Part shown: piece after piece, positions 45,037 through 54,518 of the stretch
Layout: each line of letters begins with the position of its first letter
Position numbering within the stretch: the stretch's first letter is position 1
DNA from: Bordetella parapertussis
GTDB taxonomy: Bacteria > Acidobacteriota > Terriglobia > Bryobacterales > Bryobacteraceae
Direction: 5' to 3'
NCBI GenBank assembly: GCA_943328975.2
Contig: CALQCC020000011.1
Span: 1-64,000 of the forward strand
Length of the DNA: 64,000 nucleotides
Notes under the pieces: model-generated
Database searches by the model: none
Told to the model about the DNA's origin: nothing
Seen by the model: the letters and a program-made list of their open reading frames with translations, nothing else
Program-made: the position numbers and the translations under genes

Positions 45037-47427
45037 TTACGGAGCCAGGTACGCAAACAGCCGTCCCAGCATGTCGTACTGGTGGGTGATCTGCACCCAT
45101 CCGATGCGGCTTTGTTCGCCGCGATTTGTGAAAAAACCTACGCCACCGCGCTTCAAGCGCGGCTCGTTCCAGCTATCGATCATCTGGCCTTGAATCACCA
45201 GCGAGTACCGATCGCCCTGCATTTCCATGCTCACCCGGTACAACGAATCCGTCCGCGCGGCGAACGTCACCGGCGTGTCTACTCTATCCATCGGCTGTCC
45301 ATTGATCACCGCGTAGCGAACAATGCCCATTTGCGGAACCGGCCCGTCTTTTACGACCACCAGCTTGACCACGTAGTAGTTCTGGAAATCCACGGCCCGC
45401 GCCACCCAGCTGAGCGCGCCTTTGTCGATGGCTCCCAGAAACTGGAATTCGTAATCGGTCAAGCCCAGCGACGGCTGATACAACGCCACACGCCCCGGTT
45501 GTACAAACCCCGCCTGATCGAAGGACCATTCCGCAGTCGACCCGCTGTGGCTCATCCAGTTATCGAGTCCCTGGCGGAAGTTCTCATCCAGGCCCACCGC
45601 GGCCCGTTCCGACATGCTCTTGCGCAAAGTCGCCATTTGCGTATCCAGCACTTCTTTGAACTGGCCCGTCATCGCACCCGGATCGGTCTGCGCCTGCACG
45701 CTCACCTTCGGCAACGAAGGATGGAACGCCAGCCCTAATGCGATCGGCACGGCGAAGAGCAGCATCTTCAGATCGCGTGGCGCATGGTTCCAGAAGTTCG
45801 CCACACCGGCAGCCAGGTTGCGTGCCGAATGCGCCTCACCCTGCAAAATCGCTCCGTGGACTTCCGGCATCCCATCGAACCGATATTTCGGCGAGATGGG
45901 CGTGAGCTTGGCTTGCGGGAGGATCGCTTCGCCCTGCAGCGGAGCAGCCACAAATCCGGGCCGCAAACGAACGTCCCCTGCGTGCGCCTGCATCTTTTCT
46001 GCCACATCCAGACGAAACACCTTGCTCGCTTGCGAGCGAATTTCAAACGACGGCACCGGAACACGGCGCTGGGCCGAATCCGGCAGCCGTAGCGAGATTT
46101 CCGCGACGAACGCCTGGTAGCTAACCGGCCGGTTCGACGGGTTCTCTGCCCCGCCCCGCGGTTCGCAGGCCGATAGCGACAGCAGCGGCGCGCAAGCGGT
46201 GTGAGCGATCAGATCGGAGATCGAATCTCCCGACGCCGACGGCATCCGCAGCAGCCCCAGCGAAGGCGCGGCCGCGCGTGGATTGATCGAAGTGGCATTG
46301 CCCGCCACGATCGCCCGCAACTCGCGAGCCTCAATGCCGCTCGACAAGCCTAACAATCCTGCCGGCGTAGAAAGAGACAACAGCGGCGCAACCGGGACAA
46401 ACCCGCTGGGCCGTTCCGCGGATACAACAGGGAACTCCACCGACTCACTGGCGTCAAAGACTGGACCACGAACGTCAGCCGCAAGCGGTCCAGCCAGGGA
46501 CAGCAACCTGGACTCCAGCGGTAACTCTTCACGGACCCGAGTCGCACCTTGCGCCTGTGGCTGCGCTAGCGCCGCTGCCGGAAACTCTGCGGCATCATAG
46601 GCGATGCGCTTCCAAACACTGCTATCGACGGCGCTGGGCCCGGCCAGGGAGAACAACGTCTCGGCCAGCGGGAAAGCTTCCTGCTCCACTCGCTCCAGCA
46701 CATCGCCGCACGGAGCCAGAGCGCGCCGTAACTCGCGCACTTCCCGGATCGAAAACGCCACCGGCTGGATCAGCCGCCTGAACGCCATGGCCCCGCCCGG
46801 CACGATTTCTCGCAAAGCCAGCGGACCGCCCACAGTGAGTTTCGGCGTCGCGCGCGCCAGCAAGTCGGGTGGATTGACCACCAGCCGCTCGCCCACGATC
46901 TCCACCAAGGATGCAGGGATGCTAGCAGGCAATGGAACCGAGGCATTCGCGGGTCCCAGAGCAACAATCCCAGCTAGACTACCGAATTCGACCCCTGCAG
47001 CATTCCCGAATTCGCGGCTTGGCTTGGATGCGCGCCACTGGACTTCATACTCGACCGGGTCCACCACCAGGATCGTGGCAGAGGGAGGCGGGATAGCGTG
47101 GCTCGAAGCGGACTGGAGTTGCAGTCCTTGCAGCGCGGGGATCCGCTCTGAGTCAGGCTGCGTTACCGAGGCTCGAGCCTCCACCAAACGCGGCGGGGGA
47201 ACCGCCATCGGACCCAGAATCGATTCAATGGGTGCCGCAGTCTTGTACGCCTGCAACGCGTCATGGGTCCGGTGCAGGACCTCGACCGCCAGTTGATCTT
47301 GTTCTTTCCAATACGATTCCTGGTGCGCTTTGGAGCAGAACTGTCCCTGGGCAAGCTTCCGGAACAGCGGAAGTTTTCCGTCACAAAAGAGACAACGTGT
47401 ATCGTCAGACCACGACATTGTCCCCAT
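45037..47427 (-). CDS. Uncharacterised membrane protein: N-terminal Cys/His zinc-finger-like motif, long repeat-containing linker, single TM, C-terminal lectin-like domain
   Basis: CLFCDGKLPLFRKLAQGQFCSKAHQ...LAVEVLHRTHDALQAYK; LKMLLFAVPIALGLAF; C-terminal WSFDQAGFVQPGRVALYQPSLGLTDYEFQF. Confidence 0.7.
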   Translation of the reverse strand: MGTMSWSDDTRCLFCDGKLPLFRKLAQGQFCSKAHQESYWKEQDQLAVEVLHRTHDALQAYKTAAPIESILGPMAVPPPRLVEARASVTQPDSERIPALQGLQLQSASSHAIPPPSATILVVDPVEYEVQWRASKPSREFGNAAGVEFGSLAGIVALGPANASVPLPASIPASLVEIVGERLVVNPPDLLARATPKLTVGGPLALREIVPGGAMAFRRLIQPVAFSIREVRELRRALAPCGDVLERVEQEAFPLAETLFSLAGPSAVDSSVWKRIAYDAAEFPAAALAQPQAQGATRVREELPLESRLLSLAGPLAADVRGPVFDASESVEFPVVSAERPSGFVPVAPLLSLSTPAGLLGLSSGIEARELRAIVAGNATSINPRAAAPSLGLLRMPSASGDSISDLIAHTACAPLLSLSACEPRGGAENPSNRPVSYQAFVAEISLRLPDSAQRRVPVPSFEIRSQASKVFRLDVAEKMQAHAGDVRLRPGFVAAPLQGEAILPQAKLTPISPKYRFDGMPEVHGAILQGEAHSARNLAAGVANFWNHAPRDLKMLLFAVPIALGLAFHPSLPKVSVQAQTDPGAMTGQFKEVLDTQMATLRKSMSERAAVGLDENFRQGLDNWMSHSGSTAEWSFDQAGFVQPGRVALYQPSLGLTDYEFQFLGAIDKGALSWVARAVDFQNYYVVKLVVVKDGPVPQMGIVRYAVINGQPMDRVDTPVTFAARTDSLYRVSMEMQGDRYSLVIQGQMIDSWNEPRLKRGGVGFFTNRGEQSRIGWVQITHQYDMLGRLFAYLAP

Positions 47428-47520: not shown

Positions 47521-48105
47521 TCAGGTCCGCGGGGAAGCGGCCTTGGGCCAGAGTAAGGCAAGCATTCTCTTCACCCAGGACGCCAAGTCGAGGCTGAAGG
47601 AACTCGTTTCCGGCTTGTCTAACTGCGCGAGCGACTCTCCGAAATGGAACGAGGCTGGTTCCGACCGCGCTGGGGGTTGCTGAGCGTAGACTGGGGTGTC
47701 CTCGAAGACTTCCTCTTCCAGCGTCTCATCGTCGGCCCAGACTTCCGGATCGGCCTCATCCCACTGAGGTAAGAGAGCCGCCGCAGCGACATCAAATTCC
47801 CGGGATTCATTCTCGAAGGCCAGTTCTTCGATTTCCACGGCAGGGGCGAGAACTGGTTCCGTTACAGGTTGCCTGCGTACGGAGGGCCCAAGGATGTCTT
47901 CTATCGACGATCCCACCGGCTGGTAGGCTTTCAACGCGTCATGGGTCCGATGCAAAACCTCTACCGCGAGCTGGTTTTGCTGCTGGCGGAATCCCTCTTC
48001 ATGCTCGACGGAGCAGAACTGCCCCTTACCGAATTTGCGATAGATCGGAATTGCGCGGCCGCAAAACAAACAATCCGTGGTGTCGGTCCATGCCATCACC
48101 ACCAT
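47521..48105 (-). CDS. Short paralog sharing the N-terminal Cys/His motif
   Basis: CLFCGRAIPIYRKFGKGQFCSVEHE...NQLAVEVLHRTHDALKAYQ aligns with the 796-aa protein. Confidence 0.7.
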   Translation of the reverse strand: MVVMAWTDTTDCLFCGRAIPIYRKFGKGQFCSVEHEEGFRQQQNQLAVEVLHRTHDALKAYQPVGSSIEDILGPSVRRQPVTEPVLAPAVEIEELAFENESREFDVAAAALLPQWDEADPEVWADDETLEEEVFEDTPVYAQQPPARSEPASFHFGESLAQLDKPETSSFSLDLASWVKRMLALLWPKAASPRT

Positions 48106-48190: not shown

Positions 48191-49786
48191 TTAGACTCCC
48201 CAGCAGTAGTCTTCCACGGCCCGATCAATGCCGTCGTCTTTTTCGGTGAGACGCATCAGTTCCAGGCGCAGCGCGTCGGTCAGTGCGAACCAACTGGCTT
48301 CGATCACATTTTCGGAAACGCCGACCGTTGCCCAGCTCTTCTTGTGATCCGACCATTCCACCAGCACGCGCACACGAGCCGCAGTGCCCTTCTTGTTATC
48401 CAACACGCGGACCTTATAGTCGGTGAGCCGCACGTTGGCGATGTCCGGGTACAGACCCGACAAACACTGGCGCAGCGCCAGATCCAGCGCGTTCACCGGA
48501 CCGTTGCCCGGAGCGGTAGCGGAATGGATGCCGTCCTGCGCCTTCAATGTAACCGTCGCTGTAGAGCCGGTGTTGCGCGACGTGGTCTCGTAACTGACCA
48601 CCTCGAACATCTGCACGCCAGGATTCAAGGCCTGCCGCACGACCAATTCAAACGTGCCCTCGGCTGCTTCTAGTTCGTAGCCCTGGAATTCCATCTGCTT
48701 GATACGGTCGAGTAGCTCGCGCCGGGCGGTATCGTCCAAGCGGTCTTCGAGACCATGCTGTTTCAGCTTGTAGAGGACGTTGCCCTTGCCCGAGAGATCG
48801 CTCAGCAGCACACGCTGCCGGTTGCCCACCAGCTTGGGAGAGATATGTTCGTAGGTGGCGGAATCCTTCAGCACCGCACTGACGTGTACGCCGCCCTTAT
48901 GGGCGAAAGCGCTATGTCCCACGTAAGCCTGATCGTTGCGCATCGGCAAGTTCGCCAGTTCCGCGATGTAACGGGCGGTGCTGGTGAGATGCTGCAAACG
49001 TTCGCGACCGATGGTCGTGTGGTCCATCTTCAACTCAAGGTTCGCGATGATCGAGATCAAATTCGCGTTGCCGCAACGTTCGCCATAGCCGTTGGTGCAG
49101 CCTTGCACGTGCGCGAAGCCGCGATCCACTGCCGCCAGTGCGTTCGCCACCGCAAGTTCGCAATCGTTATGGGTATGGATGCCGAGCACGCCATCGAAAC
49201 GGCGCCGGATATCCGCGCAGATCTCCGAAAGCTTGCTGGTCAACATGCCGCCGTTGGTATCGCACAGACACAACACGTCCGCGCCGGCCTTCTTCGCAGC
49301 TTCCAAAGTGCGCAACGCGAAGTCGCGATTTTTTACGTAGCCGTCAAAGAAATGCTCGGCGTCGTAGACAACTTCCCGCCCGTGCTCTTTGAGGTAGCGA
49401 ACGGTGTCGGTGATGATTTCGATATTTTCTTCTTCCGTGATGCCCAGAGCCCTGTGCACGTGGAGATCCCAGCTTTTGCCGAAGATCGTGACCACAGGAG
49501 TCTCCGCCGCCAGCAGCGCATTGACGCTGGCGTCGTCTTCCACACGGTTGCGCGCGAACCGTGTTGCGCCGAAAGCGGCCAGCCGGGCGTGGTGCAACTT
49601 CTCACCCTTAGCTTGCTCGAAGAACTCTTTGTCCTTCGGATTCGAGCCTGGCCAGCCGCCTTCAATATAGTCAATACCAAGCTCGTCCAACTTATGCATG
49701 ACCAGGATTTTATCCTCGGCCGAAAAGCTGACGGCTTCGCCTTGCGTGCCGTCGCGGAGAGTGGTATCGAACGTGAAAACGCGCAT
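48191..49786 (-). CDS. cimA: Citramalate synthase
   Basis: FDTTLRDGTQGEAVSFSAEDKI, IEGGWPGSNPKD, LCDTNGG, GIHTHNDCELAVANALAAV, GCTNGYGERCGNANL. Confidence 0.92.
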   Translation of the reverse strand: MRVFTFDTTLRDGTQGEAVSFSAEDKILVMHKLDELGIDYIEGGWPGSNPKDKEFFEQAKGEKLHHARLAAFGATRFARNRVEDDASVNALLAAETPVVTIFGKSWDLHVHRALGITEEENIEIITDTVRYLKEHGREVVYDAEHFFDGYVKNRDFALRTLEAAKKAGADVLCLCDTNGGMLTSKLSEICADIRRRFDGVLGIHTHNDCELAVANALAAVDRGFAHVQGCTNGYGERCGNANLISIIANLELKMDHTTIGRERLQHLTSTARYIAELANLPMRNDQAYVGHSAFAHKGGVHVSAVLKDSATYEHISPKLVGNRQRVLLSDLSGKGNVLYKLKQHGLEDRLDDTARRELLDRIKQMEFQGYELEAAEGTFELVVRQALNPGVQMFEVVSYETTSRNTGSTATVTLKAQDGIHSATAPGNGPVNALDLALRQCLSGLYPDIANVRLTDYKVRVLDNKKGTAARVRVLVEWSDHKKSWATVGVSENVIEASWFALTDALRLELMRLTEKDDGIDRAVEDYCWGV

Positions 49787-49811: not shown

Positions 49812-50828
49812 TTACGCTACGCCTGCCTCCTTCTTTTTCTTTAGGAACGTCATCATTTTACGCAGCTCGGCGCCAACGGTTTCGATTTGTTGGTTCTCCT
49901 GCGCTGCGCGCATGGCCAGGAACTTCTTGCGGCCGCCTTCTTTGTTCTCCGCCATCCATTCGCGAGCGAACTGCCCGGTCTGGATCTCGCTGAGAATCTT
50001 CTTCATCTCGGCGCGCGTGGCGTCGGTCACAACGCGCGGGCCACGGGTATAGTCGCCGTATTCCGCAGTGTCCGAAACCGAGTAACGCATGTAAGTGAGA
50101 CCGCCCTCATAGATGAGATCGACGATCAGCTTCACTTCGTGTAGGCACTCGAAGTACGCCATTTCCGGAGCATAACCGGCATCGACCAGGGTCTGGAAGC
50201 CGGCGCGGATCAATTCGCTGACGCCGCCGCACAGAACAGCCTGTTCGCCGAAGAGATCGGTTTCGGTCTCTTCCTTAAAGGAGGTTTCCAGAATACCGGC
50301 GCGCAGGCAACCGATTCCGGCACCGTAGGCGAGCGCGTTCTTCAACGCATTGCCGGTCGCATCCTGATGGATGGCCACCAAGCCGGGGACGCCCTGGCCT
50401 TCGGTGAACACTTCGCGAACGCGATGGCCCGGGGACTTCGGGGCGATCATGGTCACGTCCACATCCTTCGGCGGAGTGATGAAGCCGAAGTGAATATTGA
50501 AGCCGTGCGCAAACATCAGCGTCTTGCCGGCCGTCAGGTGCTGCTCAATATCGCTCTTGTAGATATCGCTCTGCACATGGTCCGGGACCAGCATCATGAT
50601 GACTTGGGCGGCCTTGGCCGCGTCCGCCACGGAGAGAACCTTCAAGCCGGCGGCTTCCGCCTTGGCCTTGCTCTTGCTGTTCGCCGCCAAACCGACGACG
50701 ACGTCCACGCCTGAATCCCGCAGGTTCATGGCATGTGCATGGCCTTGGCTGCCGTAGCCGATAATGGCGCAGGTCTTGCCTTTGAGCAGTCCCAGATCAC
50801 CGTCTTTTTCGTAGTAGCGCGTAATCAT
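49812..50828 (-). CDS. ilvC: Ketol-acid reductoisomerase
   Basis: [57 protein letters not shown]. Confidence 0.97.
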
Positions 50829-50840
50829 TAGTTTGTGTAT

Positions 50841-51386
50841 TTACTCCGTGGTAACAGTCTCTTGCGTCTCCAGATGCTCTTTTCGCACCGGCGGCGCCAA
50901 CTTCAATTTCTTCGGCTCCATCGAAACCGCGACCAGTCCGGACCGCGTCACTTCGACATCGCCATAGCGTTCAATCACGCGGATGAACGAATCCAACTTC
51001 TCCGGATCGCCCGTTGCTTCTAGTGCGAATCCGTCCACCGAACTCTCCACCGCGCGGGCCCCGAAAATATCGGCTTCCTTGAGGATCGTGGTGCGGTCTT
51101 CCTTAGAGGATCGCACGCGCACCAGCACCAATTCACGGCGCACTGCCGGGGCCTCGGTCAAATCGGTCGCCTGCAGCACGTTGATCAATTTGTTGATCTG
51201 CTTGATCACTTGCGCGCACTGGTTCGGTTCCACGTCCACAGTGATGCTCATCCGCGACAACTCCGGATCCAGCGTACGTGCGACCGTCAGGCTTTCAATG
51301 TTATACCCGCGAGCCGACAACACGCCTGTCACACGCATCAGCGCACCGGGTTTGTTCTCGACCAGCAGTGAAATTAGTTGCAGCAT
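50841..51386 (-). CDS. ilvN: Acetolactate synthase small subunit
   Basis: MLQLISLLVENKPGALMRVTGVLSARGYNIESLTVARTLDPELSRMSITV. Confidence 0.95.
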   Translation of the reverse strand: MLQLISLLVENKPGALMRVTGVLSARGYNIESLTVARTLDPELSRMSITVDVEPNQCAQVIKQINKLINVLQATDLTEAPAVRRELVLVRVRSSKEDRTTILKEADIFGARAVESSVDGFALEATGDPEKLDSFIRVIERYGDVEVTRSGLVAVSMEPKKLKLAPPVRKEHLETQETVTTE

Positions 51387-51396
51387 GTTCTCTCTC

Positions 51397-53121
51397 TTAG
51401 ACCTCGACTGGCTGCGGCGGAGCCAGCACCATTTCGTTGAGCGCGCCACCTGCGGGAACCATCGGGTAGACGTTTTCGAACGACGTCACCTTGACGTTTA
51501 ACAGGTACGGACCCGGATGATCCACAGCCGCTTGCAACGCCGCGCGCAGTTCGCTCGGCTTCTCGACCGTCTTGCCGGTGAAGCCATAGGCTCCGGCCAA
51601 CTTTTCGGGATCGGGGAAGCCTTCCAGCAACACCGAACTCATGCGGTTGTTGTAGAACAGTTCCTGCCACTGGCGAACCATGCCCAGGTAGCCGTTGTTC
51701 ATGATGATGATCTTGATAGGCAGCTTGTTGTTGGCGATGGTCCCCAGTTCGGGGATCGACATCTGGAAGCCGCCATCACCGGCCACGGCAAACACCAGCT
51801 TTTCAGGTTGTGCGAACTGCGCACCCACGGCGGCGGGTACACCGAAGCCCATGGAACCGAGGCCGCCGGAGTTGATCCACAAGCGCGGCTCGTTGAAGCG
51901 AATTAATTGCGCGCACCACATTTGATGCTGACCGACGTCACTGCAGACGATCGCGTTGCCGCCGGAGATCCGATCGATCTCGGCCATGAGGTGCTGCGGC
52001 TTGATCTCTTCGGAGGAGAACTCGGGCACCAACGGATGCTCGGCTTTCCACTCGCGCACTTGCGACCACCAGGCCTTGCGAGCTGCCGCATTCTTCGGAC
52101 GCATCTCATCGGCCAGTTCGCGAACGTTCTCGGTCAACTTCTCTAACACGCGCTTCACGTCACCGACGATCGGAATGTCCGCCAAGCGATTCTTGCTGAT
52201 CTCCGCCGGATCGATGTCCACGTGGATGATGCGCGCATGCGGAGCGAACGCCGCCAAGCGGCCCGTCACACGATCGTCGAAGCGAACGCCCAGGCAAACA
52301 AGAAGGTCCGACTCGGTCATCGCCATGTTCGCGGCGTAGCTACCGTGCATGCCAGGCATGCTGATGTAATTCGGATGCTCAGACGGCATCGCACCCAGGC
52401 CCATCAAAGTGCAGACCGACGGGATGTCGGCAAACTCGACGAACTCGCGCAGTTCCTTCGAGGCGTCCGATGCCAGGACTCCCCCGCCCGCGTAGACCAT
52501 GGGACGTTCTGCTTCCCACACCATCTGCGCCGCGCGCCGGATCTGGCCTGCGTGGCCGTCCATGCTGATCTTGTAGCCCGGCAGGTGAATCGTCGTAACC
52601 GGCGTGTAGTGCCCCTGCGCCTGGAAGACGTCCTTGGGGATATCGACCAGCACCGGTCCCGGGCGGCCCGAGGAGGCAATGTGGAATGCTTCGTGAATGA
52701 TCTGCGGCAGTTCCGCCAGATTCTTCACCATGAAGTTGTGCTTGGTGCAAGGCCGCGTGATGCCGAACGTGTCGGCTTCCTGGAAGGCGTCACTACCGAT
52801 GAGCTTCGTGGAAACCTGACCCGTGATCGCGACCACTGGGATCGAATCCATCAACGCGTCGACCAGAGCCGTGATCAGGTTCGTCGCGCCCGGACCCGAG
52901 GTCGCGCAGCAAACGCCGACTTTGCCCGTCGCCCGAGCATACCCCTGCGCCGCGAAACATGCGTTCTGTTCATGCCGCACCAGGATGTGCCGGATCTTGG
53001 AATCGTACAGCGCATCATATAAAGGAAGCGTCACGCCCCCGGGGTAGCCAAAGAAGGTGTCCACCTTCTCCCGGATCAGACACTCCAAAACGATTTCCGC
53101 GCCAGTCATCAATCGAGCCAT
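51397..53121 (-). CDS. ilvB: Acetolactate synthase large subunit
   Basis: FFGYPGGVTLPLYDALY, HEQNACFAAQGYARATGKVGVC, GDGGFQMSIPELGTIANNKLPIKIIIMNNGYLGMVRQWQ. Confidence 0.97.
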   Translation of the reverse strand: MARLMTGAEIVLECLIREKVDTFFGYPGGVTLPLYDALYDSKIRHILVRHEQNACFAAQGYARATGKVGVCCATSGPGATNLITALVDALMDSIPVVAITGQVSTKLIGSDAFQEADTFGITRPCTKHNFMVKNLAELPQIIHEAFHIASSGRPGPVLVDIPKDVFQAQGHYTPVTTIHLPGYKISMDGHAGQIRRAAQMVWEAERPMVYAGGGVLASDASKELREFVEFADIPSVCTLMGLGAMPSEHPNYISMPGMHGSYAANMAMTESDLLVCLGVRFDDRVTGRLAAFAPHARIIHVDIDPAEISKNRLADIPIVGDVKRVLEKLTENVRELADEMRPKNAAARKAWWSQVREWKAEHPLVPEFSSEEIKPQHLMAEIDRISGGNAIVCSDVGQHQMWCAQLIRFNEPRLWINSGGLGSMGFGVPAAVGAQFAQPEKLVFAVAGDGGFQMSIPELGTIANNKLPIKIIIMNNGYLGMVRQWQELFYNNRMSSVLLEGFPDPEKLAGAYGFTGKTVEKPSELRAALQAAVDHPGPYLLNVKVTSFENVYPMVPAGGALNEMVLAPPQPVEV

Positions 53122-53169: not shown

Positions 53170-53212
53170 AAAAAAGCCACTGTCCGGGGATTCTGTTTTC
53201 CCCGCCAGTGGC
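53170..53212 (-). terminator. Attenuator terminator upstream of ilvB
   Basis: Minus strand GCCACTGgCGGGGAaaacagaaTCCCCGgaCAGTGGCTTTTTT. Confidence 0.85.
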
Positions 53213-53241
53213 CAAGATCCGTATACTACGAACTCGTCCGT

Positions 53242-53343
53242 TCAGGCGGGGCCGGGTACGACCCCTACAATAATAACGGTTCGCAGCAATACTTCGACGG
53301 AAGTGACTTTAATGAGGGCCTGGTTGGGATTCGTGAAAGTCAT
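53242..53343 (-). CDS. ilv operon leader peptide (33 aa)
   Basis: Not in ORF track. Translation MTFTNPNQALIKVTSVEVLLRTVIIVGVVPGPA*: 13 Leu/Val/Ile among 33 residues, ending 30 nt before the terminator stem. Confidence 0.8.
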   Translation of the reverse strand: MTFTNPNQALIKVTSVEVLLRTVIIVGVVPGPA

Positions 53344-53362
53344 CGTCCGTCTTATTGTTCTT

Positions 53363-53391
53363 AGTCTACAGGGTAAGCAGGGCAAATGCAA
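53363..53391 (-). promoter_or_regulatory. Sigma70-like promoter of ilv leader
   Basis: Minus strand TTGCAT-N17-TAGACT, with predicted start about 13 nt before the leader ATG. Confidence 0.6.
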
Positions 53392-53516: not shown

Positions 53517-54518
53517 CTACCTCGGAGCCAAGTGCTGCGGGTAGTGGTCGCTTTCGCAGACCATCTCCTGGACCTCTTCACCCGGCGCGAGATCCCACAC
53601 CACATGCCAGGTCCACGGCTTGGCGAACGCCCCAGGATCTTCAATCGTAATGTCCTTCTCCATGTGCCCCAGGTCCGTACGTCGATAACGTTGCACCACG
53701 TGCAGCGCCTCCGTGTGCGGGAAGATGCCGACCCAACTGCGATCGTGGAATCCAATCGTGTCCACCACCAACGTATCGCCGTCCCAATGCCCGATGGAGT
53801 GCCCCATCCAAGAAGGATCGATCACCTTAGGATGGTCGCGCCCGTCGAGGAAGACTTGATGGACACCGGGAAGATTGCCCTCCCACAGAATGATCATGAG
53901 TCCGGGACTCTGAACAAGTTTGTATAAGAACGGATCCTTCAAAATCGGATCGCCCGGCAAACAGAACGACGACGGATGATCGCGCCCTCCGTCGGCCGCC
54001 CGCTGCTGGAACAGAGCGTCGGCCCATGGCAAGAGCATCGGCTGTTCCCCGCTGCCCGGCAACCCGAGCCACACGCCTGAAAAGTCTGGCTTCCCGTCGG
54101 CCGTGCGCGGCACCGGACCAGAAGGCGCGGGCGAGCGGCTGCGAACAATGATCGCAATGTCGTCTCCAGGAGTGCCGAGGTTCCCTCCCCACGGCATCGC
54201 AATATCGAGCCGCTGGACTTGTCCCGCTTGAATCGAGATGCCCGCTTGTGAGAACCGCTTGAACGTAAACCCGATGGTAGGGATCGTCAAATCGTAGGTG
54301 CCCGCCGGTAACCCGGACAGAGTGTAGCTTCCGTCAGCAATGCTGGACGCTTGATACACGGCACCGGTCGTAGTGTTCTTGAATTGCACCGACGCGGTGG
54401 CCACCGGACCATTGTTCGGATCGGTGAGTCTCCCTCTGATCGCGCCGGTATCACTTTGCGCGAAAGCGGAAGCGCTGCAGAGAGACAGAATGAGCGCGAT
54501 GGCTCCGGGCCGTAACAT
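53517..54518 (-). CDS. Secreted protein: carboxypeptidase-regulatory-like domain plus SIGHWDGDTLVVDTIGF domain
   Basis: Signal peptide; GAIRGRLTDPNNGPVATASVQFKN; C-terminal domain shared with 55339-56376 and 56386-57363. Confidence 0.7.
   Translation of the reverse strand: MLRPGAIALILSLCSASAFAQSDTGAIRGRLTDPNNGPVATASVQFKNTTTGAVYQASSIADGSYTLSGLPAGTYDLTIPTIGFTFKRFSQAGISIQAGQVQRLDIAMPWGGNLGTPGDDIAIIVRSRSPAPSGPVPRTADGKPDFSGVWLGLPGSGEQPMLLPWADALFQQRAADGGRDHPSSFCLPGDPILKDPFLYKLVQSPGLMIILWEGNLPGVHQVFLDGRDHPKVIDPSWMGHSIGHWDGDTLVVDTIGFHDRSWVGIFPHTEALHVVQRYRRTDLGHMEKDITIEDPGAFAKPWTWHVVWDLAPGEEVQEMVCESDHYPQHLAPR

Follow-up and report, generated by a model that had tools for sequence, protein, structure and literature searches.

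The leader region of ilvB in the window (the whole stretch of 64,000 nucleotides that was analysed) very probably encodes a ribosome-mediated transcription attenuator that senses the charging of valine and isoleucine tRNAs and controls ilvBNC-cimA. This RNA switch probably turns the genes for valine and isoleucine biosynthesis on when ribosomes lack these amino acids. The downstream genes named in the original prediction, ilvB, ilvN, ilvC and cimA, were confirmed by curated NCBIfam models (Table 1). Taken together, the four genes indicate that the operon makes valine and, via citramalate, isoleucine, and its content agrees with the amino acids sensed.

ilvB loci were gathered from relatives and reduced to 90 Bryobacteraceae-type loci with distinct upstream sequence. 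The promoter proposed for the minus strand, TTGCAT-N17-TAGACT, is indeed read at 53391-53363, and its placement leads us to expect a transcription start near 53356. TTGC[AC] and TAnnnT at a distance of 16-18 nt are present in 86 of the 90 loci, where 2.2 would be expected by chance from shuffled sequence, and the spacer is exactly 17 nt in 78 of these 86. Judged on sequence conservation, a promoter is therefore located upstream of the leader ORF. The ORF itself is short and has clustered codons for the amino acids of the pathway; it encodes the peptide MTFTNPNQALIKVTSVEVLLRTVIIVGVVPGPA (ATG 53343, TGA ending 53242), and the count of 13 branched-chain residues (I/L/V) at positions 10-29 was reproduced on the translation. 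Between this ORF and the first structural gene lies a putative intrinsic terminator, the hairpin with TTTTTT expected ahead of ilvB, which was found at 53213-53170. The gap from the stop codon to the stem is 28 nt, not 30 nt as first reported. The 201-nt leader folds with −81.9 kcal/mol (z = −5.6), and 0/200 shuffled sequences were equally stable. A simple consensus scan of the window for promoters and terminators detected neither the promoter nor the terminator of the leader, probably because the match of the −35 and −10 elements is imperfect, the terminator stem is bulged and its loop is long; yet both are confirmed by conservation (promoter 86/90, leader with terminator 84/90).

Table 1 Coordinates of the predicted attenuator and the operon in the window.
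Feature	Position	Strand	Basis or remark
−35 element TTGCAT	53386..53391	−	sequence and conservation
−10 element TAGACT	53363..53368	−	sequence and conservation; 17 nt spacer to −35
Leader ORF, 33 codons + TGA	53242..53343	−	sequence; ORF rich in branched-chain residues kept in 84/90 loci
Control codon cluster V18 to V29 (VLLRTVIIVGVV)	53257..53292	−	I/L/V enrichment in relatives
Strand 1, GGGGUCG	53259..53265	−	predicted protector hairpin with CGGCCCC (53254-53248) in the no-ribosome fold
Strand 2, CCCCGCC, antiterminator 5′ strand in the last leader codons	53245..53251	−	covariation, folding
Linker hairpin, inside the antiterminator helix	53214..53237	−	fold of the half transcript
Strand 3, GGCGGGG, antiterminator partner of strand 2 or part of the terminator 5′ arm	53200..53206	−	covariation
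Terminator stem-loop (strands 3:4)	53176..53213	−	sequence, fold, conservation
Terminator U-tract, T6	53170..53175	−	sequence
ilvB, acetolactate synthase large subunit, first structural gene	51397..53121	−	NCBIfam (TIGR00118)
ilvN, acetolactate synthase small subunit	50841..51386	−	NCBIfam (TIGR00119)
ilvC, ketol-acid reductoisomerase	49812..50828	−	NCBIfam (TIGR00465)
cimA, citramalate synthase	48191..49786	−	NCBIfam (TIGR00977)

Conservation of the leader in relatives had been named beforehand as a check. A script that required a short ORF closely 5′ of a hairpin with a U-tract found leader and terminator ahead of ilvB in 84 of the 90 loci, and in two more (L083, L103) the elements are visible by eye. 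The whole peptides are highly divergent; nearly all finish with a run of isoleucine and valine, GPA-like residues and the stop. The conservation of Ile and Val codons, on which the original prediction had been staked, was found as well: 83 of the 84 leaders have at least six I/L/V within their last 18 residues.

The strongest argument comes from the pairing of the leader end with the terminator. CCCCGCC lies in the last three leader codons (53251-53245) and is, as claimed, perfectly complementary to GGCGGGG (53206-53200); at least 6 of the 7 pairs between leader end and terminator 5′ arm are present in 72 of 84 loci. In an alignment of 75 sequences, all seven pairs of this antiterminator show two-sided compensatory changes (20 cells compared with a shuffled mean of 5.3), and slid registers scored lower on every measure. 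In the terminator stem, 97% of the cells are paired and 55 have two-sided changes. The leader-arm duplex of a locus was more stable than duplexes with swapped leader ends in 20,000/20,000 permutations, uncorrected for relatedness, and the swap test also favoured the own pairing among 31 loci with variant arms, a set that includes two or three mis-anchored loci; both the shuffle and the swap tests ignore kinship between the sequences. Natural variant pairs include CCTCGCC with GGCGAGG (L013, L015, L016, L017) and TTCGCC with GGCGAA (L022). Selection on the GPA ending of the peptide itself was considered and rejected, since endings such as EFA, GLA, NPA and GTA are seen in loci whose terminator arm has changed accordingly. 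Thus, at the level of sequence, the parts of the switch are documented, they are conserved, and both helices covary.

These data also bear on simpler readings of the region. One would take the hairpin for an ordinary terminator of upstream transcription and the ORF for a chance ORF that happens to be rich in branched-chain residues. A gene on the same strand does end near 53517, at a spacing that could suit a block of read-through, but in 86 of 90 loci a conserved promoter separates the hairpin from this gene. Conservation and covariation also extend to the bias of the leader towards branched-chain amino acids (BCAA) and to its base pairs with the terminator arm. We give this reading very little credence. 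Hardly more credible is control of termination by a metabolite-binding riboswitch or a T-box, for which translation of the leader would be unneeded. What is conserved are codons and a two-state helix, without an aptamer-like core, and no Rfam family matched at the gathering threshold across the window, so that by covariance model the element belongs neither to the T-boxes nor to another Rfam cis-regulator; permissive E-values gave, for the leader, chance-level matches to unrelated families only. What speaks for this reading is that riboswitches and T-boxes frequently regulate termination before amino-acid operons in other phyla.

A further reading keeps leader translation as the control of ilvB but puts Rho-dependent termination or translational coupling in the place of the intrinsic terminator. 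Some relatives from another family of the order, which kept the leader and have no recognisable U-tract, would be in line with this. In the window, however, and in almost every locus of its family, a strong, covarying hairpin with U-tract is present, and ilvB (ATG at 53121), which has its own AGGAG site (53132-53128), lies 120 nt from the leader stop. This makes such an output highly improbable.

For a ribosome-mediated attenuator, folding in both states had been named beforehand as a further check. RNA up to the terminator loop is predicted to adopt the antiterminator fold in 83/84 loci, with a small linker hairpin enclosed (mean z −1.8 for linker folds in relatives), and the complete RNA the terminator fold in the 11 loci folded in full. 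In a ribosome-position model, calculated for the window only, the RNA left free by the ribosome at each codon was folded. For an A site anywhere in codons 17-28 (16-27 with a longer footprint), seven or eight pairs between leader and arm are predicted in the half-made transcript; once V29 is reached, and up to the stop codon, they would drop to four and then to none, and the terminator is left as the sole strong structure. By prediction, antiterminator and terminator therefore exclude each other, and the position of the ribosome decides between them: a stalled ribosome gives the antiterminator, a ribosome at the stop only the terminator. The stall window had been placed at V23-V29. Stalling upstream would free the antiterminator as proposed, but the predicted stall window extends over about codons 17-28 in the A site, and a ribosome with V29 in the A site would already block most or all of the pairing. 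In the model without a ribosome, GGGGUCG pairs with CGGCCCC and the antiterminator strand is hidden.

According to the mechanism we propose, RNA synthesis would start near 53356, and ribosomes would translate the leader ORF as it emerges. With ample charged Val and Ile tRNA the ribosome would reach the stop codon and cover CCCCGCC, and the terminator would form. Slow translation in the V18-V28 cluster would leave CCCCGCC free to pair with the emerging GGCGGGG around the linker hairpin; this antiterminator would exclude the terminator and RNA polymerase would proceed into ilvB. If no ribosome is present, the protector hairpin would hide CCCCGCC and termination would be the default. The notion that the last leader codons are the antiterminator 5′ strand and are masked on completed translation, already part of the original prediction, is supported by conservation, covariation and predicted folding; the start site, translation of the leader, the response to stalling and termination in vivo are what we infer from this.

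Codon usage in the leaders is strongly biased. In relatives, I/L/V are concentrated between codons −5 and −16 relative to the stop, and GTA and ATT are favoured. Isoleucine codons make up 15% and valine codons 25% in leaders, versus 6% and 8% in ilvB. Valine is encoded by GTA in 51% of cases in leader ends (7% in ilvB coding sequences), isoleucine by ATT in 68% (26%) and leucine by CTT in 42% (9%). The bias may mean that the isoacceptors with the strongest response were chosen, in line with theory (PMC1183508), or that weak structure is needed.

The putative start sites of the leaders differ from those of ilvB. The leader in the window would have a 5′ UTR of ~12 nt and there is no Shine-Dalgarno-like 4-mer before its ATG, a point that speaks against the attenuator; such a 4-mer is present in 8/82 leaders versus 58/90 ilvB genes. 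Transcription normally begins 6-8 nt after the −10 box, and an in-frame ATG or GTG is found at just this distance in 33/82 loci; where ATG or GTG lies at 6 or 7 nt, it is in the leader frame in 29/29 cases. A second group of loci, the window included, has the ATG 16-19 nt past the −10 box. Because start codons are close to the −10 box and few leaders have Shine-Dalgarno-like sites, the sensor ORF is likely to be leaderless or nearly so in many relatives. For three acidobacterial genomes, predictions put the share of leaderless genes at 9.7-19.4% (PMC3160421). Start codons of the leaderless type, 6-7 nt past the −10 box, are seen among others in L025, L029, L051, L056, L064, L079, L081, L086, L097 and L102. 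A separate observation concerns a PNQ motif near the leader N terminus, present in the window (53326-53318) and 19 relatives. At the DNA level (CCCAACCAG), 18 of these 20 leaders agree in every position, synonymous ones included, and a search for a pairing partner of this DNA found none.

Outside the family the arrangement is retained in part. Leaders from other families of this order have SPG- or CPG-like residues at their ends; GCCCCGGC stands opposite GCCGGGG or ACCGGGG there, and an obvious U-tract is absent in several of these loci. Since the leader is kept there without a U-tract, the output of the switch may vary. In one such family, a leader and a long antiterminator-like helix with no recognisable U-tract were seen upstream of ilvB in L150-L154, L156, L157, L159 and L161. 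Seven loci from distant acidobacterial families (L164, L167, L171, L172, L188, L191, L192) have a BCAA-rich leader and a terminator of unrelated sequence before ilvB; judged by eye, their leader ends and terminator arms appear complementary, and they possibly arose independently. Most other sampled ilvB upstream loci elsewhere in the phylum have no leader with terminator. A covariance model had one real match in the own genome, the site in the window, and upstream of leuA-like, trpE-like and ilvD genes of this genome no comparable leader with terminator was found. Among the 396 genomes of the phylum searched, strong matches were restricted to the window's own genus, and weaker candidate matches occurred in other families. 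It is tempting to speculate, although we consider it somewhat less than an even chance, that the site belongs to an undescribed family of BCAA attenuators in Bryobacterales, inherited across the order and with a leaderless or near-leaderless regulatory ORF, in which one sister lineage kept leader and antiterminator and now uses another output in place of the intrinsic terminator.

Attenuation was worked out in Proteobacteria and Actinobacteria. The E. coli ivbL-ilvBN system controls the same gene pair with a Val-rich leader that lies directly before ilvB and finishes with VVVVVGNAP-stop. There, too, the final codons (GCGCCG) show complementarity to the 5′ side of the terminator (CGGCGC), and in this design the resemblance to the ilvB leader of enteric bacteria noted before holds true. 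It does not extend to the sequence: on visual comparison neither leader nor terminator can be aligned, which argues against membership in the ivbL family by descent. Moreover, the operon in the window adds ilvC and cimA, and its leader mixes Ile and Val and is devoid of a Shine-Dalgarno-like site. ilvL-ilvBNC of Corynebacterium glutamicum also has terminator, antiterminator and anti-antiterminator hairpins in control of ilvBNC, GUA among its control codons, and a start codon that is one nucleotide away from where transcription begins, reminiscent of the window family; its leader has 15 residues of other sequence, and it was tested by mutation whereas the system in the window is known from sequence (PMC11857589). 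In Mycobacterium tuberculosis ilvB1NC, a BCAA-rich uORF with a GUA control codon precedes the genes, and the antiterminator is masked by a ribosome that has reached the UGA codon; this system is from another phylum, has another sequence and was established by RNA end mapping and reporters (PMC13236596). The mycobacterial short-ORF attenuators of Canestrari et al. 2020, as cited in PMC13236596, employ a leaderless regulatory ORF to sense an amino acid, but the amino acid is cysteine and the output translational, and the leader in the window would have a 5′ UTR of its own. The start codons 6-8 nt past the −10 box in 33/82 relatives suggest a leaderless sensor as in mycobacteria.

In a survey from 2010, almost no predicted attenuator of Acidobacteria had an assigned function (PMC2965389). 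A description of a BCAA leader peptide for Acidobacteria or Acidobacteriota was not found in the open-access literature, a body of work outside of which most subscription journals lie. The attenuator in the window is absent from Rfam 15; its mechanism is classical and conserved across a bacterial family. It adds an acidobacterial attenuator whose function is defined, together with a covariance model and natural variants in which leader codons change with the terminator arm, and it offers the testable idea of a leaderless ORF as sensor outside Actinobacteria. Its main strengths are the covariation and the probable leaderless nature of the sensor ORF.

Two minor observations concern neighbouring and related genes. 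A leuA-like stretch elsewhere in the same genome (G000:C8:24591-25745, L194) has two in-frame TAG codons and is perhaps a remnant. On the minus strand 3′ of cimA, two successive ORFs (window 47521-48105 and 45037-47427) have similar N termini, LFCDGKLPLFRKLAQGQFCSKAHQESY and LFCGRAIPIYRKFGKGQFCSVEHEEGF, and are probably paralogues with a zinc-ribbon-like start.
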